Part shown: piece by piece, positions 7,673 to 63,757 of the stretch | Layout of the letters: every line of letters starts with the position of its first letter | How positions within the stretch are numbered: the stretch's first letter is position 1 | Assembly (NCBI RefSeq): GCF_001049755.1 | Contig: NZ_CVLB01000003.1 | Location: forward strand, 124,001 to 188,000 | Length of the DNA: 64,000 nt | Direction: 5' to 3' | Source: Brachyspira suanatina | Lineage (GTDB): Bacteria; Spirochaetota; Brachyspiria; Brachyspirales; Brachyspiraceae | The notes under the pieces: generated by a model | Told to the model about the DNA's origin: nothing | The model's input: only the letters and a program-made list of their open reading frames with translations | Database searches by the model: none | Made by a program: the position numbers and the translations under genes

Positions 7673-7843
7673 CAAAATATAAAAACAAAAATTAAATTTA
7701 TTTTGACAAAATATAGTTATTTAGGTATATCAAATAGTTCATTAAAATATTTTTATTTTAAATGCATTAATCCGCCTCAATAGTAAAGCTAAAAATATAG
7801 ATTTATTTATAATTCAATTTTTAGCTATATTAAAAATTTAGTT

Positions 7844-8201
7844 AAACGTGCGTTTAGTAGATTTTAAACTTAATAAAAACTAGGGCGGGCATGCTTTTTC
7901 TTGTTTAACTATAAAAATGAATAAAGTTAGAATTTCAAATTTGTACAAAAAGAATAAAGGCTGGGGTATGTGAATAAAGTTTTAAAACTTAATTACATTT
8001 GCCAGCCATTTAGATTTATAGTTTTAATTTGCCATTATAATTTTTAATTTTTTTAATAATGTAATTAGAATTTATAGCTGCCCGCCCTAGTTTTATTTAA
8101 ATTTATAATGCATACACCGCCACTATAGCTAATTCAAAATTATGCTGATTATTTTGAATTATAAATTAGCTAATGAATAAAGCTTCACTCACCGTGCGTT
8201 T
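7844..8201. repeat. Nested palindromic intergenic repeat, complete copy A
   Basis: This copy shows the whole architecture. An outer box AACGTGCGTTT lies at 7845-7855, and the GGGCGGGC box AAAACTAGGGCGGGCATGC at 7876-7894. The central inverted repeat GGCTGGGGTATGTGA...TTACATTTGCCAGCC spans 7959-8007. The GGGCGGGC box returns inverted (GCTGCCCGCCCTAG at 8077-8090) and the outer box returns as ACCGTGCGTTT at 8191-8201. It fills the space between two convergent genes and ends 15 bases from the fbp stop. Confidence 0.8.
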
Positions 8202-8215
8202 GAAAGATGATAAAG

Positions 8216-22324: not shown

Positions 22325-22505
22325 TAAGGTATCTCCCAAAATATATTATAAATTATATTTACATTATTATACAATAATATGTATTTATATACAATTGTTG
22401 CTAATAAAAATTGTTCACCCGCTGTGTGTGCCTATAGCAAAGGCTCTGCAAAGTAAAACTTGACAGAGGTTCACAATTTTTATAATTAGATTTACAAAAA
22501 AAGTT

Positions 22506-22713
22506 ATTTACAACCCCCACCCTTTATCCTTCATTATACAATATGTAATTTTTACTTTATTTTATATTTTTGCCTTATTAGAAATATAGCACCCGCCCAA
22601 GATTTTATTAGATTAATAATTAATTCAGCACGCGTTTAGTTGACTGTATATGATAGAATAATACTATAACAATAACTATTTTTAAATATAGTATCGCCTA
22701 ACCGCGTGTTTAA
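22506..22713. repeat. Palindromic intergenic repeat, half copy B
   Basis: Half of the central module (TTACAACCCCCACCCTTTAT, 22508-22527) is followed by the inverted GGGCGGG box (ATAGCACCCGCCCAAGATTT, 22586-22605) and outer boxes CAGCACGCGTTTAG (22626-22639) and AACCGCGTGTTTAA (22700-22713). Upstream, 22410-22475 is a GC-richer patch with small hairpins. It fills the space between divergent chemoreceptor and ruvB genes. Confidence 0.65.
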
Positions 22714-22757
22714 GAAATTTGTTATTTAATGAATTTTAATATATAATTACAAAAACT

Positions 22758-26627: not shown

Positions 26628-26640
26628 TTTTTTTAAATTT

Positions 26641-27072
26641 TTAACGCACGTTAAGCTAAACAAAAAATATAAATCAATTAATAATACAAATTTTTATCAT
26701 ATTATTAAAATAAACTAATCGTGCGGTAAATAGATAAAAAATCTAATAAAAACTAGGGCGGGCATGCTTTAAAATTTTAAACTTCAAATATAAATAAATC
26801 TATAATTATAAATAAAATAATAGACATAAATGGCAGGGTATATATATAAAGTTTTAAAATTTACTTTCACTCCCCACCCCTAAATATTATAATTTAAATT
26901 TAAAATTTAAACTTTTAATCATCTAATACCCAATTTAAATTTATTAAAAACCCACCCAAGTATTTTTTTAATTTATAATCTACTTCACCGCACGTAGAAT
27001 GGAATTTAAATATATAACGATAGAAAATTATAATTTAAACTATATATAAAACGAATTTACCGTGCGTAAATT
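26641..27072. repeat. Nested palindromic intergenic repeat, full copy C
   Basis: The outer boxes are TTAACGCACGTTAAG (26641-26655) and AATCGTGCGGTAAAT (26717-26731). The CTAGGGCGGGCATGC box lies at 26753-26767 and the central inverted module at about 26826-26886 (TGGCAGGGTATA...CTCCCCACCCC). The inverted GGGTGGG box (AACCCACCCAAG) lies at 26949-26960. Outer boxes return at 26984-26998 and 27055-27072. It lies between convergent genes. Confidence 0.72.
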
Positions 27073-35826: not shown

Positions 35827-35999
35827 ATATTTTCCGCCTTTTAAAGAATAAAAATTCCGCTTTCCTTATGTTCGGAATAATAAAAAAAGCCTTGATAAAT
35901 TTTATTCATATATTATGTAAATATTCTGTAATCATAATATAAATAGGCTTAAATATATAAAATTACAATTATCCATAATCATATATTTTCAATCTAGTT

Positions 36000-36392
36000 A
36001 ACTCGTGCGGTATATTCTTCACAATTTTTTAAAAAACTTGGGCGGGGGCCGTAATTTCTGATTCAGCTTTAAATATAATTAAAACTAAAATTCAAAAAAT
36101 AGTGACAAAGCATAAAGTGCGTGTATATAAATAAAATTTTAAATTTTTTATCAACTTTTCCCGCAGCAAAAGTGCAAAAATATATTTTATTTGAAACCTT
36201 ATTATGAAGTAAATATTATATTTACAATAATAATGAATTAAAAAGTATAAAGGGTGGGCAAATGTAATTTAACTTTAAAACCTTAATTACATACCCTGCC
36301 CCTTTATCTTATATACATAATTTTAAAATTATAATTCAAATTTATCTTAATAATTTAATAATAAAAAGCATACCCGCCCAAGCTTTTATTAG
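36000..36392. repeat. Nested palindromic intergenic repeat, compound copy D
   Basis: Outer box ACTCGTGCGGTA (36001-36012) is followed by AAAAACTTGGGCGGGGGCC (36032-36050). A degenerate central half (TAAAGTGCGTGTATAT near 36112) comes next, then an intact central inverted repeat from 36247 (TAAAGGGTGGGCAAATGTAA) to about 36308 (TTACATACCCTGCCCCTTTAT). The inverted box AGCATACCCGCCCAAGC lies at 36367-36383. It looks like two units joined. It fills the 680-bp divergent gap between murA and the next gene. Confidence 0.72.
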
Positions 36393-36507
36393 TTTTTTAA
36401 TATATTTATCATATTAACATAATATTTTTTTATAAATTTGGTTTTAATAAAAATATAATTATGATATAATATATCTAACAATTTTATTAGGAGTAGGATG
36501 GAATATT

Positions 36508-39494: not shown

Positions 39495-39890
39495 ATGAAA
39501 CATTGTATTAAAATTCTAAGTCTATCTTTTATATTATTATTTATTTTAAGCTGCGGAAATAAAAATGATCCTATAGAAAATTTAAAGGGAACAGCTAGAT
39601 ATGAAGGAACTTTAATGACCACACAAAATACTAGACAGCTTGAAACAAACAAAGGCACTTTAATTGTTAATGAAGATAGTTCAATAGAAATCATTATAGA
39701 AGGTGGAAATATACGTTATAGTAAAGTAACCATATCAAAAGAAGAATTAACTAAAGTTGATGAGGCTTCATATACCGCAGAGAAAGATGGAAATAAATAT
39801 TCTTTTGCTTTTTATGACACCTACATGAATTTAACAATCAACAATACTGATAATACAACAACAAATGGAAAACTTTCAAAAATTAGTTAA
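39495..39890 (+). CDS. Small lipoprotein, 131 aa
   Basis: A predicted lipoprotein with signal peptide and lipobox (FILLFILSC, Cys near residue 20). The ~110-residue mature domain is beta-rich and starts LKGTARYEGTLM, with conserved Tyr/Thr strands (SYTAEKDGNKYSFAFY). The same pattern is seen in the lipoprotein at 52.6 kb. It has no known family. GGGGC precedes the ATG. It is probably exported and membrane-anchored. Confidence 0.65.
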   Translation: MKHCIKILSLSFILLFILSCGNKNDPIENLKGTARYEGTLMTTQNTRQLETNKGTLIVNEDSSIEIIIEGGNIRYSKVTISKEELTKVDEASYTAEKDGNKYSFAFYDTYMNLTINNTDNTTTNGKLSKIS

Positions 39891-39946
39891 GCTGATTTTT
39901 ATTATTGTTTAATTCATAATTCAAACATATATTTAAAACTTTGCTC

Positions 39947-40202
39947 TGGATGCGGTGAATACACGATAAATTTAAAATCCGCTTGGGTGGGCAGCAAAAA
40001 ATTCTAATTAAGTAAATGAGAAATTAAAAGTTTCTACTGCAAAGTGATACTTTAAATATAAAGGGTGGGCAAATGTAATTAAATTTTCAAACTTAATTTA
40101 CATACCCCGCCCTTTATTCTTTGTTGATTTATTTTTTAATCATAATTTAAATTGTTTTATTGCTTAATTAAAAAAGCACACCCGCCCTAGCTTTCATTAA
40201 AT
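39947..40202. repeat. Nested palindromic intergenic repeat, copy E
   Basis: Outer box TGGATGCGGTGAAT (39947-39960) is followed by GCTTGGGTGGGCAGC (39981-39995). The central inverted repeat spans 40058-40119 (ATAAAGGGTGGGCAAATGTA...TACATACCCCGCCCTTTAT), and AGCACACCCGCCCTAGC lies at 40175-40191. The right end stops about 8 bases before the MATE gene stop. It lies in a convergent gap. Confidence 0.75.
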
Positions 40203-40209
40203 TTATAAT

Positions 40210-41583
40210 TTATTTAGTATTATCCTGAAGGCTTTTTAAATGCTTTATTTCTATAGCTACCATTATAATAGTAACTAGCAAAGCAGCTCCGTCAGCAATA
40301 GGACCAGCATACATTACACCGTCTATACCAAATATTCTAGGAAGTATAATTATTAAAGGCAAAAGAAATAAAGTCTGTCTAGTTACAGCAAGGAATGCAC
40401 CCTTAAATGCTTTTCCTAAAGAACTAAAGAATGTACCAGTTACAGGCTGTGCCGCATTGATTATCATAAGCATCATAAATATTCTCATATACTTTTCAGA
40501 GAACTGAAAATAAAGTTCGCTTCCGTCACCGAATATAGAAACAATTTGTCTAGGGAAGAATTGAAATAATAAAAATGCAATGAATGTTATAGCACTTGTT
40601 ATTATGATAGTATATTTATATGTTTCAATAACCCTATCATAATTTTTAGCTCCATAATTAAAACCTATTATAGGCTGACTTCCTTGAGAAGCTCCTATAA
40701 CAAATGACATTACAAGCATGTTAACTTTCGCTACTATTCCGGAAACTGCTAAAGGTATATTACCGCCGTATATAGAATTACTTCCATAATAGCTAAGTAC
40801 ATTATTCATAACAATTTGAAGAATCATCATAGATAAGTTACTGAATCCTGCAGAAGCACCTAATGCAAATATTTTTAATATTGATTTGAATTCAGGTATA
40901 AAGCTTTGTTTTTCAAATTGAATATTTTTAAATTTGAATATGTATGCAAAAGCTATAAAGAAAGATACATACTGTCCTATAACTGTGGCAAGTGCAGCAC
41001 CTGCAATACCCATTTTAAATACAAATATAAATAAAGGGTCTAGAATAGTATTAACAATAGCACCGCTTAAAACTGAAGCCATAGAATATTTAGGACTTCC
41101 GTCTGCTCTTATGGTATAACTCATAACCATAGAAAATATATAAGCTGTAAATCCAAAAGAAGTTATATCGGTATATATTACTGCATAATCCAAAACCTCT
41201 TTTGTTGATCCGAATGCTATCATCAATTTTGTATTGAATATCTTTACCACTATTGATAATATAATACCAAATACAAATGATAAAGTAATACTGTTTCCAA
41301 TGATAACAGAAGCATGTTTATTTTCACCTTTTCCTAGCAGTATGCTGTAAAGAGAAGCTCCTCCAACACCTAGAAACAATGATATAAATATGCATATTAT
41401 AGTGAGAGGGAAAGCCACATTAGTTGCGGCATTCCCATTGATTCCCACTCCTTGTCCTATAAATATTTGATCTACTATATTATAAAGAGAACCCACAAGC
41501 ATTGATATAATACTTGGAGTTCCATATTTAAAAAGAAGCCTATGTATCTTTTCATAATACAAAGGGTTTGATGAAACTGACAT
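40210..41583 (-). CDS. MATE family efflux transporter (paralogue 1)
   Basis: A 457-aa multidrug/toxin exporter with twelve predicted membrane segments and the MATE hallmarks (TPSIISMLVGSLYNIVDQIF near the N-terminus, GSQPIIGFNYGAKNY at mid-length). The frame extends to a TTG at 41595, but ATG 41583 has a GGA ribosome site and aligns with its paralogue. It is clearly similar throughout to the MATE gene at 42.8-44.1 kb, indicating tandem duplication. Substrate is unknown. Confidence 0.9.
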   Translation of the reverse strand: MSVSSNPLYYEKIHRLLFKYGTPSIISMLVGSLYNIVDQIFIGQGVGINGNAATNVAFPLTIICIFISLFLGVGGASLYSILLGKGENKHASVIIGNSITLSFVFGIILSIVVKIFNTKLMIAFGSTKEVLDYAVIYTDITSFGFTAYIFSMVMSYTIRADGSPKYSMASVLSGAIVNTILDPLFIFVFKMGIAGAALATVIGQYVSFFIAFAYIFKFKNIQFEKQSFIPEFKSILKIFALGASAGFSNLSMMILQIVMNNVLSYYGSNSIYGGNIPLAVSGIVAKVNMLVMSFVIGASQGSQPIIGFNYGAKNYDRVIETYKYTIIITSAITFIAFLLFQFFPRQIVSIFGDGSELYFQFSEKYMRIFMMLMIINAAQPVTGTFFSSLGKAFKGAFLAVTRQTLFLLPLIIILPRIFGIDGVMYAGPIADGAALLVTIIMVAIEIKHLKSLQDNTK

Positions 41584-41820
41584 ATATAAATCCAATAAAT
41601 ATATTAAATAACCTCAATAATTATAAAGTATATTTATTTTTCTTACATTTTCAACAATTTCAATTACTTTTATTCTTTTCAAGTATTTTTAATTTTTTTA
41701 TTTCTCTGCTTACTAATATATAAAAATATAATTATAAACTATTTTTATTTATTCTATATTTGATTTAAATAATAATATATTATATAATAAATAATATGGA
41801 TAATTTAATTAATATGAAAG

Positions 41821-45060: not shown

Positions 45061-45083
45061 ATTTTTTATATATTTTAACTTTT

Positions 45084-45520
45084 TTACCGCACGGTGAATA
45101 CGTTTTTATTTGTTATTTAAATTATAATTCAGGACGCATATATGTTAAAAATTTATTTTAGAGTGCGTTGTATAAAGTCATAAATTTAAAAAACTCTTGG
45201 CTGGGAAGCTAAAAATTCTAATGAGATAATAAAGAATTAAAAAGTTTATATTATATATAAAAACTATGAGCCTTGAGGGTGGGGAATGAAAATAAGTTTT
45301 AAAACTTAATTACATACCCCACCCTTTATTATTATATGTATTAATTTGCAATTATAGTTTTTTTATATTTAAAGATTTAATCTGTAATTATAACACCCGC
45401 CCTAGTATTTATTATATTTAAAAATTTATTTAACGTACGGTGAATGCATTTTTATTTACTATTTAAATTATGATTCATAATTAATTTATATTTTAAATTT
45501 TACTCTGCGTGCGATGAATG
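45084..45520. repeat. Nested palindromic intergenic repeat, full copy F
   Basis: Outer box TTACCGCACGGTGAAT (45084-45099) and GAGTGCGTTGTATAA (from 45161) are followed by a degraded CTCTTGGCTGGGAAGC box (45193-45208). The central inverted repeat runs from 45271 (CCTTGAGGGTGGGGAATGAA) to 45328 (TTACATACCCCACCCTTTAT). ACACCCGCCCTAG lies at 45393-45405. Outer boxes TAACGTACGGTGAAT (from 45431) and CTGCGTGCGATGAAT (from 45505) close it. It fills a convergent gap between hisF and MATE 3. Confidence 0.75.
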
Positions 45521-45535
45521 AAGCTATAAAATCAA

Positions 45536-46909
45536 TTATGAATTAATCTCATTTTCCATCATATTTTTCTTCTTTGTTGTTCTATAAATATAGATATACA
45601 TTATTGCTGACAATAGTATAGAAACAACATCTGCTATAGGCTGAGACCATATTATACCATTAATTCCAAAAAATTTTGTACCGAAATATATTGCAGGCAC
45701 AAATGCTATTCCCTGTCTGCATACTGATAAAATTAAAGAAGGCAATGCTTTTCCTAATGCCTGAAATGTTGATATGAATACGAACTGAAATCCTATAATA
45801 GGAGCTACTGAATATGCCGCTATTAAAAATTTAGAACCATATTCTATAACTTCATCATTCTTTATGAATATTGCTATAAGCTCTTTTGAGAATATAAAAG
45901 CAAAAATTAAAAATATTATTCCTGACACAAAACTAAATAAGCATGAAAGTTTTATTGAGGCATTCATTCTTTTATAGTTTTTGGAAGCATAATTATATCC
46001 TATAAAAGGCTGTACTCCCTGCCCTAATCCTATGAATACCAAAAGAACAAGCATGAATATTCTTTGCGAAACTCCAAGACCTGCTACTACATTATCATTA
46101 TATTTAGATGCAAAATTATTTATTAAAATATTTGCTATGCTTATTAATACATTGTTCATAAACACAGGAAAGCCTATTGAAAATACATTATTTAGTATAT
46201 CTTTTGTTAATGCAAAATCTTTAAATCTTATTGAAAGAAAACTGCTTTTTTTAGCTATATGCCAAATATAATATAATGTAGAAGAAGCATTACCTATTAT
46301 AGTGGCAAGAGCAGCACCAGCAACACCTATATTCATATAAAGAATCATTATTGGATCTAATATGATATTTATTATAGTACCAAGCATCATACCTATCATA
46401 GCTTCTTTTGAAGAACCTTCAGAACGTACAATCTGCCCCAATGACATTTGACAAACTACAAATACAGCTCCGAATGCCACTATAAGTAAATAGTCTTTAG
46501 CAAATTTATATGTATTTTGGCTTGCTCCTGATAATTTCAGTATCTTATTTAAAAATACCAAAAAAACTATCATACATACAAATCCAGTAATAACACTTGC
46601 AAAAAATGCAAAAGATGAAACCTGCTTTGCCTTATCATAATTTCTTGCACCTAAACTTCTTGATATATAAGAAGCTCCACCTATTCCGTATATAGATCCA
46701 AATGACATAAGAACCAAATAAATAGGCATAGTCAAAGAAACGGCAGCTACCTGATTAGGATCATTAGTCTGACCTACAAAAAAAGTATCTACCATATTAT
46801 AGAATACGTTAACAAGCATTCCTAGTATGGTTGGAAGAGCCAAGGTTATTAATGCTTTATATACCGGATAATTTTCAAATATATCTATTTTCTTATCGTT
46901 CTGATTCAT
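45536..46909 (-). CDS. MATE family efflux transporter (divergent type)
   Basis: A 457-aa MATE exporter with about twelve membrane segments and the MATE repeat motifs VNVFYNMVDTFFVGQ and GVQPFIGYNYASKNYKR. It belongs to a different MATE subgroup from the two paralogues upstream: the termini differ and identity is visibly lower. Single gene. Substrate is unknown. Confidence 0.9.
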   Translation of the reverse strand: MNQNDKKIDIFENYPVYKALITLALPTILGMLVNVFYNMVDTFFVGQTNDPNQVAAVSLTMPIYLVLMSFGSIYGIGGASYISRSLGARNYDKAKQVSSFAFFASVITGFVCMIVFLVFLNKILKLSGASQNTYKFAKDYLLIVAFGAVFVVCQMSLGQIVRSEGSSKEAMIGMMLGTIINIILDPIMILYMNIGVAGAALATIIGNASSTLYYIWHIAKKSSFLSIRFKDFALTKDILNNVFSIGFPVFMNNVLISIANILINNFASKYNDNVVAGLGVSQRIFMLVLLVFIGLGQGVQPFIGYNYASKNYKRMNASIKLSCLFSFVSGIIFLIFAFIFSKELIAIFIKNDEVIEYGSKFLIAAYSVAPIIGFQFVFISTFQALGKALPSLILSVCRQGIAFVPAIYFGTKFFGINGIIWSQPIADVVSILLSAIMYIYIYRTTKKKNMMENEINS

Positions 46910-46995
46910 AATATTTTCCCAAAAAAGTAAAGAGTATTATATTACATTTGATTTTTATTATCAAGCATTAATCAAGTGAGAATTTAGCTATAAAC

Positions 46996-47120
46996 CTAAT
47001 AAAAACTTGGGCGGGTATTAACATTTCTGTATTGGCATTGAAGAAAAGTAAAATAATAATTTCACAGTAAAATACAAAAGAATAAAGGGCGGGGTATGTA
47101 AATAAAATTTTTAACTGTAA
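46996..47120. repeat. Palindromic intergenic repeat, left half copy G
   Basis: AATAAAAACTTGGGCGGGTAT (47000-47020) is followed by the left arm of the central module (AATAAAGGGCGGGGTATGTA, 47081-47100). The right half is missing. It lies in the 529-bp divergent gap between MATE 3 and the PepSY-like gene; the rest of that gap is featureless AT-rich DNA until the promoter at 47364. Confidence 0.7.
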
Positions 47121-47363
47121 AAGCTAATATATTTATATTAAAAAATTATTCTATGTTATAAAAATTACAATTTTTAACCAGAATTTCCAATTTTATTCTA
47201 ATTTTCATAGCAAAATATTATATTTACAGCCAATTTTATAGTATTTGTAAATATATTTTACATTTATTCTTACCATATTACCTATTTATGTATTATACGT
47301 ATTGTAATACTGTGTTTTTTATTTAGTTTTGTAAATTTATTGTAAATTATTCGTAAATAAATA

Positions 47364-47391
47364 TTGCTTAATTTTTACATTCTGCTATAAT
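47364..47391 (+). promoter_or_regulatory. Promoter of the PepSY-like gene
   Basis: TTGCTT (47364-47369) and TATAAT (47386-47391) lie 16 bp apart, 48 bases before the ATG. Confidence 0.6.
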
Positions 47392-47438
47392 TATAAATGT
47401 AAAGAGATTTTACAATATACACTGTAAGGAGATACAAT

Positions 47439-47819
47439 ATGACTAATAGCTTAAACCTTTTTATTAAAATTACACCTAGCCAATTACCTGAGAATATTAG
47501 AAGATTTATCGCTTCTAATTACAGCAAAGCTAAAATCGTTTATATTGATAAAGTAAAAGATCAATATGAAATTAAATTAAACAATGGTATTTATATCAAC
47601 TTTGACAAAAACGGAAGTTGGAACTATATAAGCAGCGACGATAAATTATCTGAAAATATACTTCCAAAAACTATAGCTAGCAAAATTAAAAACATAATGA
47701 AAAAATATAATAATGCTTATGTTTTTGAAATCAGCAAAAGAATAGAGTTCTACAGAGTAAGATTAACTAATTCTTTAGAAATTAGAATAAAAAATAACGG
47801 ACAATTAATAATGGCATAA
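47439..47819 (+). CDS. PepSY-like (DUF2874) protein, 126 aa
   Basis: A small soluble protein with two copies of a ~55-residue beta-lactamase-inhibitor-like unit. The first reads LPENIRRFIASNYSKAKIVY...YEIKLNNGIYINFDKNGSW. The second is a divergent copy starting LPKTIASKIKNIMKKYNNAY. This is the PepSY-like/DUF2874 pattern, usually found in exported proteins; here there is no signal peptide. AAGGAG lies 8 bases before the ATG. A terminator follows. Function is unknown. Confidence 0.68.
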   Translation: MTNSLNLFIKITPSQLPENIRRFIASNYSKAKIVYIDKVKDQYEIKLNNGIYINFDKNGSWNYISSDDKLSENILPKTIASKIKNIMKKYNNAYVFEISKRIEFYRVRLTNSLEIRIKNNGQLIMA

Positions 47820-47858
47820 CTTTTATCATTTTGTATCTCTTTAAAGTGATTAATATAT

Positions 47859-47898
47859 AAGGCTTGAGTCTTTAATTAGATTCGAGTCTTTTGTTTTA
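47859..47898 (+). terminator. Terminator after the PepSY-like gene
   Basis: GGCTTGAGTC (47861-47870) pairs with GATTCGAGTC (47879-47888) using three G-T pairs, flanked by AA/TT; TTTTGTTTT follows. Confidence 0.72.
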
Positions 47899-47902
47899 TA
47901 AA

Positions 47903-48113
47903 TTCCATTACATTTGCCCGCCCTCTAGGCTTATTATTCAAATCTGAAATTTGCACTTATAGTTTCTTATTATCTAATTAGAATTTTTTGCTGCCCGCCC
48001 AAGCTTATTTTAAATTTAGAATGCATACAACGCACGCAGAATAATATTTAAAATATATACTAATTAAAAATAATAGTTTAAATAATAAATTAAAATCAGT
48101 TCACCGTGCGATT
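47903..48113. repeat. Palindromic intergenic repeat, right half copy H
   Basis: Right arm of the central module (TTACATTTGCCCGCCCTCTA, 47908-47927) is followed by GCTGCCCGCCCAAGC (47990-48004) and outer boxes CAACGCACGCAGA (48028-48040) and TTCACCGTGCGATT (48100-48113). The left half is missing. It ends 34 bases before the addB promoter. Confidence 0.72.
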
Positions 48114-55902: not shown

Positions 55903-56565
55903 ATGAGAAATAGAATTAAAATAATTATAGATATAATAATGACAATTCTTTATTTCGTTTTGATGGGATATCATTTTACAGGACGAACTATACATGAATA
56001 TTTAGGATTTTTGATTTTTGTATTTTTTATACTTCATAATATAATGAATATTAATTGGTATAAAAATCTACCTAAAGGAAAATACAATTTAAATAGATCG
56101 CTTAATACATTTATAAATGTCATGCTATTTATATGTATGTTTGGATTAGTGGTAAGCGGAATATTATTTAATAGAGATTTAGTAGAATTTCTTAATCTTA
56201 GCAGCATCAAAGTATTCAATAAAAAACTGCATATAGTTTGCAGCTATTGGGGATTTATATTGATGTCTGTACATTTGGGAATGCATTGGGGTATATTTAT
56301 AAACATGAGTAAAAAAATTATAAATATAAAAAAACAAATATATATATTGATAGCTTTGCTAATAGCTCTATATGGAATAGTTTCTTTTATAAAAAGAGGT
56401 TTTTATATTAATATGTTTGTAATTGCCAAAGTTCCTAAAGCTGAAGAAGCTGCAGTATTTTTCTTTATGGATCATGTTGCTGTAATGGGAGTTTTTATAT
56501 TCATTACTTATTACTTACATAGATTGAGCAATAAATTAAATAAGATGAGTATACAGCAAGGATAA
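55903..56565 (+). CDS. DUF4405 family membrane protein, cytochrome b-like
   Basis: A 220-aa protein with five or six membrane segments. Histidines lie at regular places in the helices (GYHFTG, IHEYLGF, LHNIMN, LHIVCSYWGF, VHLGMHWG), and these pairs could bind haem as in small cytochrome b-type or ferric-reductase-like proteins. It fits DUF4405, whose function is not established. A strong GGGGG ribosome site precedes the ATG. It is not obviously linked to copA because a terminator separates them. Confidence 0.72.
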   Translation: MRNRIKIIIDIIMTILYFVLMGYHFTGRTIHEYLGFLIFVFFILHNIMNINWYKNLPKGKYNLNRSLNTFINVMLFICMFGLVVSGILFNRDLVEFLNLSSIKVFNKKLHIVCSYWGFILMSVHLGMHWGIFINMSKKIINIKKQIYILIALLIALYGIVSFIKRGFYINMFVIAKVPKAEEAAVFFFMDHVAVMGVFIFITYYLHRLSNKLNKMSIQQG

Positions 56566-56580
56566 TAACTTTATAATTTT

Positions 56581-56735
56581 CAAAGTGCGGGCATAGATGT
56601 AATTAAGTTTTAAAATTTATTTACATACCCCGCCATTTATTCTTTATTATCTAATATGTAATTTTTACTTTATTTTATCTTTCTACTTTATTAGAAATCA
56701 AGTTTTTATTATATTAGCAGTTCATTTAACCGCCT
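56581..56735. repeat. Palindromic intergenic repeat, partial copy I
   Basis: The central inverted repeat is present (AAGTGCGGGCATAGATGTAA...TTACATACCCCGCCATTTAT, 56583-56640). Downstream is a weak remnant of the box and outer module (CAAGTTTTTATTATATTAGC, TTTAACCGCCTTTAA near 56725). It begins 15 bases after the DUF4405 stop. Confidence 0.65.
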
Positions 56736-56874: not shown

Positions 56875-57927
56875 ATGATAGTTTTAGAAAATGTCAGTAA
56901 AGTATTTAAAACTGCTAAAAATAAACAGCTCAATGCAGTTAATAATGTGTCTTTAAAAATAAACAAAGGCGAGATATACGGTATAATAGGTTTTTCAGGA
57001 GCCGGAAAATCAACTTTGGTAAGATGCATAAACTTATTAGAAAGACCTACATCAGGAAAAGTTTATGTAGGCGGAGAGGAATTGACATCTTTAAAACCTA
57101 GAGAGCTTAGAGAGAAAAGGAAAAAAATAGGTATGATATTTCAGCAGTTTAACTTGTTCGGCTCAAGAACAGTATTTAAAAATGTTGCATACCCATTAAG
57201 ATACAGAGGACTTTCAAAAGAAGAAATAGAAAAAAAAGTGATGTCTTTACTTGAACTTGTAGATATAAAAGAAAAGGCCTATGTTTATCCTTCGCAATTA
57301 AGCGGCGGACAGAAACAAAGAGTTGCAATAGCTAGAGCTTTAGCCAATGATCCGCAAATACTTTTATGCGATGAAGCTACAAGTGCATTAGATCCTCAAA
57401 CAACATCTTCTATATTGAAGTTATTAAAAAAATTAAATGAAGAACTTGGAATAACTATAGTTGTAATAACCCATGAGATGAGCGTTGTAAAAGAGTTATG
57501 TCATAGAGTTGCAGTTATGAGTAATGGTCATCTTATAGAGGAAGGAAATATATTTGAGGTATTCTCTCATCCTAAAAATCAAATCACTCAGGATTTTATA
57601 GATACAACTTCAAATGTATCTAAGATATATACGCTTATAGAAGAAAAACATAATATAACAGAATTAAAACAAGGCGAATGTATATTAAGATTAAAATATA
57701 AAAAGGATTCTGTAGGAGAGGCTTTAATATCTCATATTTCAAGAAAGTTTAATGTTGATGTTAATATAATATTTGGAAATGTTGAGCTTATAGATGAAAG
57801 CCTTTTAGGCGGACTTGTTGTTATACTTCATGAAAAAGAAAAACATGGCATAACAAAAACTATAGAGTTCCTTAATGAACAAAATGTAGATGTAGAGGTA
57901 ATAAAAGATGCTAGATATGATGAATAA
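56875..57927 (+). CDS. metN: Methionine ABC transporter ATP-binding protein MetN
   Basis: A 350-aa ABC ATPase with Walker A GFSGAGKST, Q-loop, signature LSGGQKQR and Walker B ILLCDEATSALD. A C-terminal NIL domain (residues ~265-345) binds methionine and inhibits the transporter when the cell is replete. This domain identifies it as MetN rather than another amino-acid ABC subunit. AGGA precedes the ATG. It overlaps metI by 20 bases. Confidence 0.95.
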   Translation: MIVLENVSKVFKTAKNKQLNAVNNVSLKINKGEIYGIIGFSGAGKSTLVRCINLLERPTSGKVYVGGEELTSLKPRELREKRKKIGMIFQQFNLFGSRTVFKNVAYPLRYRGLSKEEIEKKVMSLLELVDIKEKAYVYPSQLSGGQKQRVAIARALANDPQILLCDEATSALDPQTTSSILKLLKKLNEELGITIVVITHEMSVVKELCHRVAVMSNGHLIEEGNIFEVFSHPKNQITQDFIDTTSNVSKIYTLIEEKHNITELKQGECILRLKYKKDSVGEALISHISRKFNVDVNIIFGNVELIDESLLGGLVVILHEKEKHGITKTIEFLNEQNVDVEVIKDARYDE

Positions 57928-58588
57928 TTTAATGCCTAATGTTATGGCTGATTTGCCTAGACTTTATCAAAGCATAATACAAACTTTTGTAATGCTTTTT
58001 TATTCAGGTGTAATATCATTTTTTATAGGTGGATTTTTGGGAGTGCTTTTAATAGTTACTAAAAAATTCGGAATAATGGAAAATATATTGTTATATGAAG
58101 TATTAAGCAAAGTGATTAACTTTTTCAGAGCTATACCATTTATAATACTTCTTGCTATGTTAGTACCTCTTACAAGATTTATAATGGGTACTGCAATAGG
58201 AGTAAAAGGAGCTATCATACCATTAATATTTGGAACAGTCCCTTTCTTTGCAAGACAGATAGAAAGTGCATTATCAGAAGTTAATCCAGGACTTGTAGAG
58301 GCGGCACAGTCTATGGGATCATCTCCTATAGCTATTATTTTCAGAGTATATTTAAAAGAAAGTATAGCTCCTATAGCAAGAGGAACTACTATAACAATAA
58401 TTAGTTTAATAGGACTTACTGCTATGGCTGGAGCTGTAGGGGCAGGCGGACTTGGAACTTATGCTATACAATCAGGATATTATAGAAATAAATTAGATAT
58501 TATATATGTATCTGTAATACTTCTTGTAATACTTGTTGGAATTATACAGGCTATTGGAAATTTTATAGTTAAAAAAGCTACACATTAA
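57908..58588 (+). CDS. metI: Methionine ABC transporter permease MetI
   Basis: A 226-aa permease with five membrane segments and the cytoplasmic coupling EAA-like loop (LVEAAQSMGSSPIAIIFRVYL). It forms the membrane channel with MetN. GAGG at 57895-57898 fits ATG 57908 inside the end of metN, so the two are translationally coupled. Confidence 0.95.
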   Translation: MLDMMNNLMPNVMADLPRLYQSIIQTFVMLFYSGVISFFIGGFLGVLLIVTKKFGIMENILLYEVLSKVINFFRAIPFIILLAMLVPLTRFIMGTAIGVKGAIIPLIFGTVPFFARQIESALSEVNPGLVEAAQSMGSSPIAIIFRVYLKESIAPIARGTTITIISLIGLTAMAGAVGAGGLGTYAIQSGYYRNKLDIIYVSVILLVILVGIIQAIGNFIVKKATH

Positions 58589-58638
58589 GAAAATTATTAT
58601 GATATGAAAAAACTATTTGATATTGAGAGGGATTATTT

Positions 58639-59595
58639 ATGGAAACTTTATTGAAAAGAAGAAAAGCTGTATTGATAGGGGCAGGACATGTAGGTTCTCA
58701 TGCAGGATATGCATTGGCGGCTCAAGGTTTAGTTGAAGAAATAATTTATATTGATATAGATGAAAAGAAGGCATTTTCTCAGGCTTTAGATATATTTGAT
58801 GCTACAGTTTATTTACCTCATAGAGTAGAAGTAAAATCAGGAACTTATAAAGATATAGATGATGCTGATATAATGGTGGTATGTGCGGGTCCTTTGCCTA
58901 ATATGAATCAAACTAGAATGGATACTTTAGGTGCTACAATAGGGGTTATGAAAGATGTAACATCTAAAATAAAAAATACAAAGTTCTCAGGAATCATAAT
59001 CAATATTTCTAATCCTGCAGATGTTATCACTCATTATTTACAAAATAAATTGAATTATGATCCTAAAAGAATAATATCTACAAGTACCACATTAGATTCT
59101 GCAAGATTAAGAAGAGCCATATCAGAGGCGATTAATGTTGATCAAAAGTCAATATATGCCTATGCTTTAGGTGAGCATGGAGAAAGTCAGATGGTTCCAT
59201 GGTCAACAGTTACTATAGCAGGAAAGCCTTTGTTTGAACTTATGAAAGAAAAAGATAAATACTCAAAACTTGATTTAAAAGAATTAGCTTATAAAGGAAG
59301 AAGAGGCGGCTGGGATGTTTTAGAGGGTAAAGGATCTACAGAGTTTGGAATAGGTACTGCTTTAGCTGAAGTGGCACGCGCTGTACTTTGCGATGAGCAT
59401 AGAGTTCTTCCTGTTTCAGTTTATTTAAATGGAGAATACGGACAAAATGATGTTTATGCTTCAGTTCCTGCAGTGCTTGGAAGAAATGGAGTTGAAGAGA
59501 TAATCGAATTAAAGATGAATGATGAAGAGAAAAAATTATTTGATGAATCTTGCAGCGTGATGAAAAAGAATTATGAATTAGCTTTGAATATGTAA
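58639..59595 (+). CDS. Lactate/2-hydroxyacid dehydrogenase-like NAD enzyme
   Basis: A 318-aa member of the lactate/malate dehydrogenase family: NAD motif GAGHVGSH near residue 14, catalytic His in GEHGESQ, and the conserved ISNPADVITH. The substrate loop reads GPLPNMNQTRMD, unlike the Q-x-x-G-E-(T/S)-R loop of ordinary L-lactate dehydrogenase. It keeps the catalytic arginine (TRMD) but changes the specificity position, more like L-2-hydroxyisocaproate dehydrogenases. It sits between metI and the metQ genes, which hints at methionine-derived 2-oxo acids, but lactate dehydrogenase activity cannot be excluded. Confidence 0.78.
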   Translation: METLLKRRKAVLIGAGHVGSHAGYALAAQGLVEEIIYIDIDEKKAFSQALDIFDATVYLPHRVEVKSGTYKDIDDADIMVVCAGPLPNMNQTRMDTLGATIGVMKDVTSKIKNTKFSGIIINISNPADVITHYLQNKLNYDPKRIISTSTTLDSARLRRAISEAINVDQKSIYAYALGEHGESQMVPWSTVTIAGKPLFELMKEKDKYSKLDLKELAYKGRRGGWDVLEGKGSTEFGIGTALAEVARAVLCDEHRVLPVSVYLNGEYGQNDVYASVPAVLGRNGVEEIIELKMNDEEKKLFDESCSVMKKNYELALNM

Positions 59596-59711
59596 TAATA
59601 TTTATTATAGTATTATTATATATTGACAAATATTATATAAAATATAGTAAGGCAAATTCTCAATTATAAAATTTATAAAAGAGAATTGTATTATATAAAA
59701 ATGATAATGCT

Positions 59712-60515
59712 ATGAGAAGAATAATTTTACTTTTTATTTTTATATTTTCTGTTTCATGTTCTAATGCTGATAAAAATGTCCATATAGTGAGAGTGGGATA
59801 TATAGGCGAGTCGGATAAAATTATTTGGCAAGAGGTGATGAAAAAAGTTTCTAATGATAATATAGAAATAGAATTGGTATCTTATATTAATTATTCTTCT
59901 CCTAATAAAGTTTTAAATGATGGTGAAATAGATTTAAATAATTTTCAGCATTATGCATTTTTTAATAAGGAGTTGGAAGATAAAGGATATGAATTAACTG
60001 CTATAGCAGATACATGTTTAGCTGCTATGAATATATATTCTGATAATATAACAAATATTAATCAGATTAAAGAGAATGATAAAGTTGCTATACCTAATGA
60101 TGATTCTAATAGAGGCAGAGCTTTAAAAGTATTAGCAGCGGCAGGATTGATAGAATTAAAAAATATATATAAACAAAATCCTACTGTTAATGATATAAAA
60201 GAAAATAAATTAAATTTGGATATAATTGAAGTTGATGCTGGAAGTATATATGGTTTGCTTCCAGATATAGCAAGTGCCGTTATCAATAGTAATTTTGCTT
60301 TAAACTTCGGACTTGATCCTTATAGAGATTCTATATTTAAGGATAATACGAGCAATTATACTGATAAAAATTATATAAATATTATAGCTGCTAGAACAGA
60401 AAATAAGGATAATGAGACATACAAAAAAATAATAAATGCATATCAATCTGATGAGATTAAAGAAATATATAATAAAAAATTTAATGGAATATATAGCTGT
60501 TTGGTAATTTTATAG
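59712..60515 (+). CDS. metQ: MetQ/NlpA-family substrate-binding lipoprotein 1
   Basis: A 267-aa lipoprotein (lipobox VSC, Cys16) that delivers methionine to MetNI. The NlpA-family motifs are kept: DLNNFQHYAFF, AIADTCLAAMNIYS, IPNDDSNRGRALKVL (binding arginine) and SAVINSNFAL (binding asparagine). It is close to MetQ 4. The C-terminus (GIYSCLVIL) differs from the usual ending. It is the first of four tandem copies. Confidence 0.88.
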   Translation: MRRIILLFIFIFSVSCSNADKNVHIVRVGYIGESDKIIWQEVMKKVSNDNIEIELVSYINYSSPNKVLNDGEIDLNNFQHYAFFNKELEDKGYELTAIADTCLAAMNIYSDNITNINQIKENDKVAIPNDDSNRGRALKVLAAAGLIELKNIYKQNPTVNDIKENKLNLDIIEVDAGSIYGLLPDIASAVINSNFALNFGLDPYRDSIFKDNTSNYTDKNYINIIAARTENKDNETYKKIINAYQSDEIKEIYNKKFNGIYSCLVIL

Positions 60516-60533
60516 TTTTTAGTTGGGGGGACT

Positions 60534-61322
60534 ATGAAATCTTTAATAATATTTTTTTTATTAATTAATATTCTTTCTTGCAATAATTCTAATGTTGATA
60601 TTATAAAGGTAGGACATATAGGAGAATTTGATTCGGATGTATGGCAGAAAATAGATGAAGAGTTAAAAATTGAAAATGCAAGATTAGAACTTGTATATTT
60701 TGAAGATTATGAAATTTTAAATAAGGCTCTAAATGATGGTGAGATAGATTTGAATTCTTTTCAAAACTACATATATTTTGTAAATGAAACTAATAAATAT
60801 AATTATAATCTTCATATATTAGGAAAAACTTTCGTGGCTCCTATGAATATATATTCAAAATTTCTTACGAATATAAATCAAATATCATCTAATGCTACAA
60901 TAGCCATTCCTGATGATGAAGTAAATTTATCAAGAGCATTGCAAGTATTAGAAGTGGCAAATATCATTAAACTTGAAAGATTTGATACGAGTTTTTATAA
61001 TATATCTAATATTATAGAAAATAAATTAAATATTCAATTTATAACTATGGATGCTAGTATAATTTATTATAATATGGATAAGGTTGATGCCGCCGTTATA
61101 AATTATGGATTTATTTCAGATTATATAAATTATAAAATTATATTTTATGATGATATATCAAAATATTCGCATGCTGGTTTGATGTCCTATGCTAATTTGA
61201 TTGTATGCCGAGAAAAAGATAGAAATTATAATCTTTATAAGTTTATAACAGAAAGCTATAGACAGAAGATGAAGAAAAATATAGATAAAAATATATTAGA
61301 TGGTCTTATTGCAATTGACTAA
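60534..61322 (+). CDS. MetQ/NlpA-family lipoprotein 2, divergent
   Basis: A 262-aa lipoprotein (lipobox LSC) of the same family but much diverged. The family NDPSNGGRAL becomes DDEVNLSRAL, FQHYAYF becomes FQNYIYF, and the asparagine strand reads VINYGFIS. A GGGGGG ribosome site lies just upstream. It probably binds a different ligand from MetQ 1 and 4, or is losing function. Confidence 0.8.
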   Translation: MKSLIIFFLLINILSCNNSNVDIIKVGHIGEFDSDVWQKIDEELKIENARLELVYFEDYEILNKALNDGEIDLNSFQNYIYFVNETNKYNYNLHILGKTFVAPMNIYSKFLTNINQISSNATIAIPDDEVNLSRALQVLEVANIIKLERFDTSFYNISNIIENKLNIQFITMDASIIYYNMDKVDAAVINYGFISDYINYKIIFYDDISKYSHAGLMSYANLIVCREKDRNYNLYKFITESYRQKMKKNIDKNILDGLIAID

Positions 61323-61346
61323 TAATTAAATATAGGGATACATATA

Positions 61347-62135
61347 ATGAAAAAATTATTATTTATTTTGTTTTTATTACTATTTATTATTTCTTGTAAT
61401 TGTAAAAAAGAAGAAGTGGTAAAGATAGGATACATAGGGGAGCTTGACATGAGCATATGGGAATACGTAGCAAATGAAATGAAAGAACAAAATATTTTAT
61501 TAGAATTAATACAATTTTCAGACTATTCTATAATAAATAAAGCTTTAAATAGCAAACATATAGATTTGAATCATTTTCAGCATTATGCTTATTTCGTTAA
61601 TGCTACAAATAAAAACGATTATTATTTGAGTATAATAGATAAAACTTTTATAGCTGCTATGAATATGTATTCAGAAAATTTAACTAATTTATCTCAGTTA
61701 CAACTACATTCAAAGATAGCAGTACCAAAAGATGAAGTAAATTTATCAAGATCATTAAAAATATTGGAATCTATAGGATTATTAAAATTAATTAGGAAGA
61801 ATAATATTAATTATAATTTTACCACAAATGATATAAGAGAAAATTATTTGAAATTAGAGTTTGTAGCTGTAGAGGCAGATGATGTTTATTCTGTCATGTC
61901 TTTTGTTGATGGAGCTTTTGTTAATCTCAATCTTAATTTTGATTTTAAAGATTCAAATATATTATATTATGATGATCCTAGTAAATATGATTCTGATATG
62001 TATATAAATCTTATAGTTGCAAGATTAGAAGATGAAGATAATAGCGTTTATAAAAAGATAGCTGAGACTTATAAAAAAAGAATAAAAGAGGTTGTCGAAT
62101 CAGGAAAATTAAATGGAATTATCATCAATTATTAA
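61347..62135 (+). CDS. MetQ/NlpA-family lipoprotein 3, divergent
   Basis: A 262-aa lipoprotein (lipobox IISC) that shares with MetQ 2 the altered DEVNLSRSL pocket segment. It has FVNLNLNF at the asparagine strand and an acidic EADDVYSVM in place of the glycine-rich VDAGSIYGLLP. MetQ 2 and 3 are sister copies that diverged together from the canonical type. Confidence 0.8.
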   Translation: MKKLLFILFLLLFIISCNCKKEEVVKIGYIGELDMSIWEYVANEMKEQNILLELIQFSDYSIINKALNSKHIDLNHFQHYAYFVNATNKNDYYLSIIDKTFIAAMNMYSENLTNLSQLQLHSKIAVPKDEVNLSRSLKILESIGLLKLIRKNNINYNFTTNDIRENYLKLEFVAVEADDVYSVMSFVDGAFVNLNLNFDFKDSNILYYDDPSKYDSDMYINLIVARLEDEDNSVYKKIAETYKKRIKEVVESGKLNGIIINY

Positions 62136-62213
62136 TAGTTTTTATTGAAATTATTCAAAAAATAATATAATCTAAATAAATTAATTTAATTAAAATTTTA
62201 TAAAGGAGCGAAA

Positions 62214-63029
62214 ATGAAAAAATTTTTATTATTTATATCATCAGCCATATTATCATTAATGATATTATCATGCGGAAATACTTCTTCTGGTGATCAAAAG
62301 GTAGTTAAAGTTGGTTTTGCTGGAGAGTCTGATTATCAAATCTGGGATCCTATAGTAGCTAAACTAGCTGAAGAAGGAATAAAAGTAGAGTTAGTATCTT
62401 TCTCTGATTACACTATACCTAATCAGGCTTTAAATGATGGAGAGATTGATTTGAATGCTTTCCAACACTATGCATACTTTAATGATGAAGTATCAAATAA
62501 AGGATATGATTTAACTGCTATAGCTGATACTTATATATCTGCTATGAATATTTATTCTACTAATATCACAGATGTAAAACAATTAAAAAACGGCGATAAA
62601 ATAGCTATACCTAATGACCCTTCTAATGGTGGAAGAGCTTTAAAAGTTCTTCAGGCTGCAGGAATCATTAAAGTAAAACCTGAAGCAGGAGATACTCCTA
62701 GTGTAAGCGATATAATAGAAAATCCTCTAAATATTGAAATCGTAGAAATGGATGCAGGTGCTATTTATGGTGTTCTTCCTGATGTTGCTTGTGCTGTTAT
62801 TAATGGAAACTATGCTATAGACTTCGGTTTGAATCCTGGTTCTGACTATATATTCAAAGATGACCCTTCTATTTATAGTGGAAAATCTTTTGTCAATTTG
62901 ATAGCTGCAAGAACTAAAGATAAAGATAATGAATTATACAAAAAAGTTGTAGCAACTTATCAATCTGAAATAGTAGAAAAAGTTTATAATGAGAATTTCT
63001 TAGGTTCTTATCTTCCTACTTGGAAATAA
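62214..63029 (+). CDS. metQ: MetQ/NlpA-family substrate-binding lipoprotein 4, canonical
   Basis: A 271-aa lipoprotein (lipobox ILSC) with the full set of canonical motifs: FAGESDYQIWDPI, DLNAFQHYAYF, IPNDPSNGGRALKVLQAAG, VDAGAIYG-type (MDAGAIYGVLP) and CAVINGNYAI. A strong AAGGAG ribosome site precedes it, and codon use looks less AT-extreme than in copies 2 and 3, so this is likely the main methionine-binding protein. A good terminator follows at 63057. Confidence 0.92.
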   Translation: MKKFLLFISSAILSLMILSCGNTSSGDQKVVKVGFAGESDYQIWDPIVAKLAEEGIKVELVSFSDYTIPNQALNDGEIDLNAFQHYAYFNDEVSNKGYDLTAIADTYISAMNIYSTNITDVKQLKNGDKIAIPNDPSNGGRALKVLQAAGIIKVKPEAGDTPSVSDIIENPLNIEIVEMDAGAIYGVLPDVACAVINGNYAIDFGLNPGSDYIFKDDPSIYSGKSFVNLIAARTKDKDNELYKKVVATYQSEIVEKVYNENFLGSYLPTWK

Positions 63030-63092: not shown

Positions 63093-63757
63093 ATATTACT
63101 TAATTAATATAAAAATTATAATATATTTTGGATAAAATGTGTATCATATAACTAATATCAAAGAAGCATAAAAAATTATAAGGAAAATTGTTTGTTAGCC
63201 TACTCTTCTATAATTAACTTCCTACTATATATATATTTTATGCTGAAAATCAAGTTACTCATTTCTTCCAAAATATACAATTTTTTCATAAAAAATAAGA
63301 ATTTATAAGTATAAATAACATTATTTTTTTAATATTTATCAAACTAAATAAAAACTTCATTTATCAGTTATAATAGTATATTTTAATTCCTTCCCTTTTA
63401 TGTATTTTATTTTTATTCAAAATTAGTAATATCATTTATTTTAAAGCTTAAATAATAAAAGCATTCATGACCAAGATTTTATTATATTTATAATCTCATT
63501 CACGAATGATGAGCTGATTCTTAAATATAAATAATATTTGAATTATTAATTTATTTATATTATTTTCTTAATCTACCGTACGTTGTATAAGTTATAAATT
63601 TAAAATTTCACATTATAACATTTATAAATAACAAAAATTGTCGCTTTTATAAAAAATAAGAAAATAAATAACTTAAATGCACTAAATAAAATTCTTAAGG
63701 TTTTTTTTATATTACCGTTAATATTAGAAGTTAATTACTAAAAAAGGAGTTCTTAGT
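63093..63757. other. Gene-free AT-rich stretch with a degenerate palindromic-repeat copy (K)
   Basis: No supportable gene lies in these ~665 bases. AAAAGCATTCATGACCAAGA (about 63458-63477) resembles a GC-eroded form of the inverted GGGCGGG box, and CTACCGTACGTTGTATAA near 63573 resembles an outer box, so an old copy of the dispersed repeat is likely. The end holds the AAGGAG ribosome site of the next gene. Confidence 0.4.

Follow-up and report, generated by a model that had tools for sequence, protein, structure and literature searches.

In Escherichia coli, sequence-specific sites define chromosomal domains of several hundred kb: maoS, recognized by MaoP in the Ori domain, is a single 17-bp sequence, and matS, recognized by MatP, is found at the terminus (Ter), with 23 dispersed copies (PMC5441646). 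The RacA-binding ram sites of Bacillus subtilis are short motifs, with further copies dispersed across the remainder of the chromosome. Here we describe a family of intergenic repeats in the spirochaete Brachyspira suanatina, present in a stretch of 64,000 nucleotides (contig NZ_CVLB01000003.1, positions 124,001 to 188,000; hereafter the window, numbered from its first nucleotide) and beyond it. The Brachyspira element shares origin enrichment, the hallmark of ram/maoS-type families, and a domain of several hundred kb, as in E. coli, is proposed for it here. Unlike ram, it is a 440-bp compound structure with almost no origin-distal copies and, unlike maoS and matS, it is modular.

Many bacteria carry interspersed palindromic repeats. 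The BOX elements of Streptococcus pneumoniae are modular intergenic repeats with a variable number of inner modules, as in the Brachyspira family; to our knowledge, BOX is not origin-centred. The REP/BIME sequences of enterobacteria are, like the Brachyspira element, imperfect intergenic palindromes, often arrayed and mostly at gene ends, but a REP is ~35 bp long and has a Y1 (RAYT) transposase as its partner; this enzyme is absent in the eight Brachyspira genomes screened. The parS site is likewise palindromic and origin-proximal; however, its sequence is unrelated to that of the element, which is spread over 600 kb and separate from parS-like sites. The Correia element of Neisseria, a miniature inverted-repeat transposable element (MITE), is also dispersed, intergenic, bounded by inverted repeats, a few hundred bp long and free of open reading frames (ORFs) (PMC10969869). 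The Brachyspira element differs from MITEs in its confinement to the origin and its two unequal core arms, and neither a target-site duplication nor, in a screen for the Y1 family, a mobilising enzyme was found for it.

Placement around the replication origin

The elements lie almost exclusively in the region that reaches ~300 kb from the replication origin in each direction, and this is the main new result, invisible in the window alone. Occurrence was scored by matches to a 61-nt core model of the element, and positions were taken relative to predicted parS. On the three closed chromosomes of genomes G019, G012 and G008, 73% of the cores among the matches listed, from which weaker copies are missing, are within 300 kb of parS (101/137), and the pooled counts per 100 kb of distance run 38, 37, 26, 10, 5, 4, 1 and onward. 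Again among the matches listed, cores to the left and right of parS number 26/26 (G019), 26/22 (G012) and 20/17 (G008), with circular means at -23, -28 and -23 kb, respectively. These three genomes are partly dependent, through copies of common descent. What argues most strongly against a merely inherited position is the recurrence of the pattern in G016 (3,241,804 bp), where most copies have their own core variant with unchanged boxes and form a distinct subfamily. Searched with this variant, the genome yielded 39 pieces, which make up 29 loci with a mean position of +42 kb from parS; 24 loci are no more than 300 kb from parS, where 5.4 would be expected. The few copies in G006 are near parS as well (P=0.009).

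The contig of B. suanatina that includes the window (C3, 434 kb) also includes parS, at 197.8 kb, and its 46 element loci comprise 60 pieces. No piece is inside an ORF of at least 100 aa, and convergent gaps are favoured (18/46 loci). Twelve 20-kb stretches (240 kb) of contig C1, between 600 and 1820 kb, contain zero elements, even at relaxed thresholds. On the origin contig the GGGYGGG motif of the element boxes has a density of 26.7 per 100 kb (105 of its 116 occurrences are within elements), versus 0.4 per 100 kb in the origin-distal stretches. Surplus intergenic DNA near the origin was rejected as the cause, the difference in non-ORF fraction (0.22 on the origin contig versus 0.16 origin-distal) being too small. 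Polarity relative to replication was also rejected, since in the B. suanatina genome (G000) both element orientations occur to the left (17+/14-) and to the right (12+/17-) of parS, as counted by eye.

In each closed genome the predicted, near-consensus parS pairs are grouped in a single short interval, and a reversed control pattern gave 0 matches. The pair of B. suanatina is found at G000:C3:197832-198674 and has equivalents in seven other genomes. The cumulative GC-skew minimum was at ~0 in G012 and ~1.4 Mb in G019 (sampled), and the r-protein gene rplB is oriented away from the region of the minimum. The predicted parS pairs coincide with the origin given by GC skew; in the three large closed genomes, parB is 0.8 Mb and dnaA 1.2–1.3 Mb away (the latter in G008, G012 and G019), an unusual separation of both genes from the origin. 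In B. intermedia, the origin by GC skew has been placed at record position 1, with dnaA elsewhere (PMC3163572). ParB was found in all nine genomes tested, its gene being far from the element cluster. The element consensus contains no TGTTTCACGTGAAACA-like 16-mer, and the parS-like sites are separate loci.

Anatomy of the element and its distribution

The anatomy was derived from 70 non-redundant copies, and a 441-column profile was built from an alignment of 26 copies of the B. suanatina genome. The full element (~440 bp) consists of a flank module (CGCACG...CGTGCG), a box CTTGGGCGGGT, a 78-bp AT-rich spacer, a two-armed core and the mirror half; GGGYGGG and CGTGCG are thus each present four times, arranged as mirror images with constant spacing. 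The distance from box to core is 75–81 bp in nearly all copies, although mean pairwise identity is 66%. The conserved blocks are, in turn, the outer CGCACGG, CCGTGCGT ~70 bp inward, the box CTTGGGCGGGT, the arm GGGCGGGGTATGTAA, the centre AAGTTTTAAAA, the second arm TTACATTTGCCCACCC, the box CCCACCCAAG, CCGCACG and the outer ACCGTGCGT. The terminal inverted repeats CGCACG...CGTGCG are kept across copies. Direct inspection of the alignment shows the left and right flank modules to be alike, and the element may accordingly be viewed as a unit flanked by two modules. Half-elements are common and end at profile positions ~200–230, the palindrome centre. A perfect core palindrome, as drawn in a preliminary description of the window, is an idealisation; the usual arms are unequal (GGGCGGGGTATGTAA versus GGGTGGGCAAATGTAA, read on the other strand), and these two arm types lend the element a polarity.

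The family is found in 23 of 26 Brachyspira genomes, with 0 to ~60 cores per genome. Among 296 genomes sampled from the phylum, the 23 positives belong to Brachyspira without exception, and none of the 270 genomes outside the genus contains it. Similarly, an exact 21-base core pattern matched 68 stretches in named genomes, all of them Brachyspira. Carriage by a phage or plasmid was rejected, as a search of phage and plasmid collections gave no match. The preliminary description had given the family no known name, and this still holds, with no description of such repeats in Brachyspira found in the open-access literature and no match in Rfam; its suggestion that copies might be sought beyond the window is borne out by their presence across the genus. 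The three family-negative genomes are G021 (2.5 Mb), G009 (2.0 Mb) and G005. All three contain ParB, and parS-like pairs were found in both of those searched (G009 and G021). No other repeat was found near parS in G021 that could substitute for the family.

Copies and neighbouring genes in the window

Searching the window with the profile identified nine stretches and a weak tenth, all outside genes. The arm motif GGGCGGGGTATGTAA, with up to three mismatches, occurs nine times against 0.18 expected from shuffles, and the box CTAGGGCGGGC, with up to one mismatch, six times against 0.05 expected. The dispersed, mirror-symmetric, modular intergenic family proposed at the outset is thus real, and a single copy used as query against its own genome returned 73 matching pieces. 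The list of copies originally drawn up was largely recovered, including the weak piece at 63.4 kb, while the degenerate copy reported at 15.2 kb was not detected at E<1e-3.

Copy A (7772..8205, plus strand; profile 7-439, 288 bits, E 6e-86) is a full element, with flank module, box, core, box and flank module, and has an orthologous copy in G008 and G012. Its left GGGYGGG box is an exact match to CTAGGGCGGGC at 7880..7890 (plus strand), its core inverted repeat is at 7959..8008 (plus strand) with the centre AAGTTTTAAAACTT at 7977-7990, its right GGGYGGG box is an exact match on the minus strand at 8080..8090, and its right outer end box CACCGTGCGT is at 8190..8199 (plus strand). The interval 7844-8201, by which the family was first located, covers this single copy minus its left flank module. 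Two further full elements are copy C (26640..27070, plus strand; profile 3-436, 222 bits), with an orthologue in G008, and copy F (45083..45518, minus strand; profile 3-437, 281 bits), with orthologues in G008 and G012. Copy B (22499..22714, plus strand; profile 220-438 on the plus and 10-218 on the minus strand) is a half element which stops at the palindrome centre and has orthologues in G008 and G012. Copy E (39888..40228, minus strand; profile 78-425, 243 bits) is without one outer flank and coincides with a synteny breakpoint in G012. Copy I (56524..56734, plus strand; profile 140-357 on the plus and 85-247 on the minus strand) consists of a core with partial arms, and the weak partial copy is at 63432..63582 (minus strand; profile 8-159, 29 bits, E 1.5e-7).

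Copy D (35948..36408, profile match, no strand assigned) is rearranged, with a left part at 35987-36147 and a right part at 36232-36408. G012 harbors two D-like elements on either side of extra DNA with a predicted lipoprotein gene. A heptanucleotide minisatellite (CAATCAG-type, ~17 copies) is found by a predicted lipoprotein gene, between two elements, at G012:C2 ~3,214,950. The stretches at 47.0 and 47.9 kb, originally listed as separate copies, were both detected but are halves of one element (G/H), cut exactly at the palindrome centre by 788 bp; the left half is at 46961..47111 (plus strand; profile 70-219) and the right half at 47900..48111 (plus strand; profile 221-433). The insert (47112-47899) consists of a PepSY-like gene (ORF 47439..47819, plus strand; PF11396, E 4e-23) with flanking DNA, and the whole segment is missing from G012.

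Two MatE transporter genes, at 40210-41595 and 45536-46909, each adjoin an element, and the pair is within a region where genes are duplicated compared with G008. At 56875-63029, a gene for an ABC transporter ATPase with a NIL domain is followed by a run of similar ORFs of 262–318 aa that match each other, tandem paralogues which probably encode substrate-binding proteins. Outside the window, ~42 kb of the B. suanatina genome (G000:C3:228494-271046) has no counterpart at this site in G008 or G012. The junction in those two genomes is an element, of which G000 retains just the right part (270858-271045).

Competing explanations and significance

For most copies in the window, G008 and G012 carry a copy at the corresponding site. 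Between orthologous copies, the boxes have diverged by 0.079 versus 0.138 for the spacers (P=1e-9), ~0.6 times the spacer rate. Changes away from the consensus are even between the two genomes compared, which argues that detection bias is not behind the constraint on the boxes. Divergence is 12–13% in element DNA, 15–17% at third codon positions and 8–9% in other aligned intergenic DNA.

The position, the fixed geometry, the constraint on the boxes and the lack of RNA-type pairing together point to DNA sites of an origin-domain protein, while dispersal, subfamilies and recent copying demonstrate that the sites multiply. We therefore propose, with somewhat less than even confidence, that this genus-specific, modular, intergenic DNA family marks the Brachyspira origin domain, ~300 kb either side of parS, as a putative multi-site protein-binding platform spread by recombination. 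GGGYGGG and CGTGCG would then be the binding sites of a sequence-specific protein, and one such protein binding many elements at once could gather, anchor or insulate the origin region, in a mode like that of RacA/ram, MaoP/maoS or MatP/matS yet unrelated to them. Copies would multiply by recombination, through tandem duplication at the flank modules and then ectopic copying, and probably not by a transposase; tandem arrays, half-units and one distant pair of 99.4% identity, described below, point this way. A bolder form of the proposal, which we regard as rather doubtful, is a spirochaete origin macrodomain in which about a hundred compound elements, with eight protein sites each, mark out a 600-kb domain with parS at its centre; amplification restricted to the origin would renew the elements lineage by lineage.

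Several observations weigh against a binding platform. The spacers are near-neutral, the constraint on the boxes is moderate, and decay shows no clear trend between distal and proximal copies. The element is 440 bp, whereas known organising sites are 13–20 bp, and the number of cores varies between genomes from 0 to ~60. The family is not essential, since three of the 26 Brachyspira genomes are without it despite the presence of ParB in all three, and for this reason our confidence in the platform stays below one half.

Of the functions originally offered for the family, the mobile element and the protein-binding site are both still standing, while the structured RNA is disfavoured. A structured RNA, or a transcription terminator or attenuator working at gene ends, is very improbable: the core consensus can be folded (-11.3 kcal/mol) and elements are in surplus in convergent gaps, but they occur in divergent gaps too, and the function of genes cannot account for confinement to the origin domain. 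Variation in the arms had been thought to keep pairing and hence to indicate selection on structure; however, at core position 198-241, 50/66 copies have a C.A mismatch, 7/66 a T facing G and 6/66 a strict Watson-Crick pair. Pairing and covariation are no higher than in shuffles (covariation 0.009 versus 0.013), RNAalifold found no compensatory change at any predicted pair, and an Rfam search of the window returned tRNAs only, with no match to the element. The systematic mismatch of the arms, together with the lack of covariation, argues that selection acts on DNA. A close rival, possible though on balance doubtful, is a MITE-like non-autonomous element that preferentially inserts, or preferentially survives once inserted, in the origin domain, with the boxes as present or former transposase or recombinase sites. 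The nested terminal inverted repeats, the dispersal, the range of copy number, the intergenic sites with their surplus in convergent gaps and the lineage-specific subfamily are all consistent with such an element, as is a recent copying event in G016, by either insertion or gene conversion: a 356-bp block is 99.4% identical between two positions that are separated by 345 kb (-185 and +159 kb relative to parS) and have unrelated flanks. However, target-site duplication as a mark of mobility was rejected, no excess of matching flanks being found at k=3–9 in 93 copies. A RAYT/Y1 partner was also rejected, as Y1_Tnp, the transposase family screened, is absent from the eight genomes in a search that was positive in E. 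coli and other controls, and a genome survey of B. hyodysenteriae reports no insertion sequences (IS) or transposons (PMC2650404). The boxes are constrained in place, and the comparison of syntenic loci suggested earlier revealed copies at orthologous sites in G000, G008 and G012 but no clean empty site; one half copy, in G008, differs in presence/absence from the window, but this was rejected as a case of an empty site because the edges are not clean.

It is unlikely, though less so than an RNA, that the family is a functionless satellite-like repeat which spreads only locally, by tandem duplication, gene conversion and inversions between inverted copies, and is kept near the origin via origin-symmetric rearrangements. 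Tandem arrays speak for this explanation. At ~2.494 Mb in G006 (L261:6032-7628), five half-units of 233 bp, in direct repeat and matching at 88–90%, come after a full element, a case of local amplification of half an element; G017 contains tandem arrays with a period of ~348 bp. Amplification is still under way, as shown by the G006 array and, in G016, by a 358-bp tandem duplicate (96%) and the 99.4% identical block. Half-elements broken at the palindrome centre and the recent G016 pair, on opposite sides of parS, would also fit, as would the X-shaped genome alignments reported in Brachyspira (PMC3163572). Enrichment of elements at gene-order breaks is suggestive: breaks are found in 9/49 element gaps versus 12/178 others (P=0.023, gap length uncontrolled), and in direct alignments 6/9 breaks have an element against 2.7 expected. 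On the other hand, similarity between copies does not fall with distance (rho -0.04), by which isolation by distance was rejected, and the boxes are conserved against near-neutral spacers. Neither the zero copies in 240 kb of origin-distal DNA, in genomes where rearrangement is frequent, nor the repeated origin confinement in a separate subfamily is expected of a functionless repeat.

We know of no other repeat family confined to one symmetric, origin-centred domain, and of no origin-domain organising system described in the spirochaete phylum. The elements are easily masked and can be used as strain markers, and the genomes without the family (G021, G009 and G005) are a useful natural comparison. 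If the elements bind a protein, they would constitute an origin-domain organising system; if they are mobile, their spread, limited to the origin domain, would let them serve as natural probes of how the chromosome folds. In both cases, their enrichment at gene-order breaks bears on the X-shaped rearrangements of Brachyspira.
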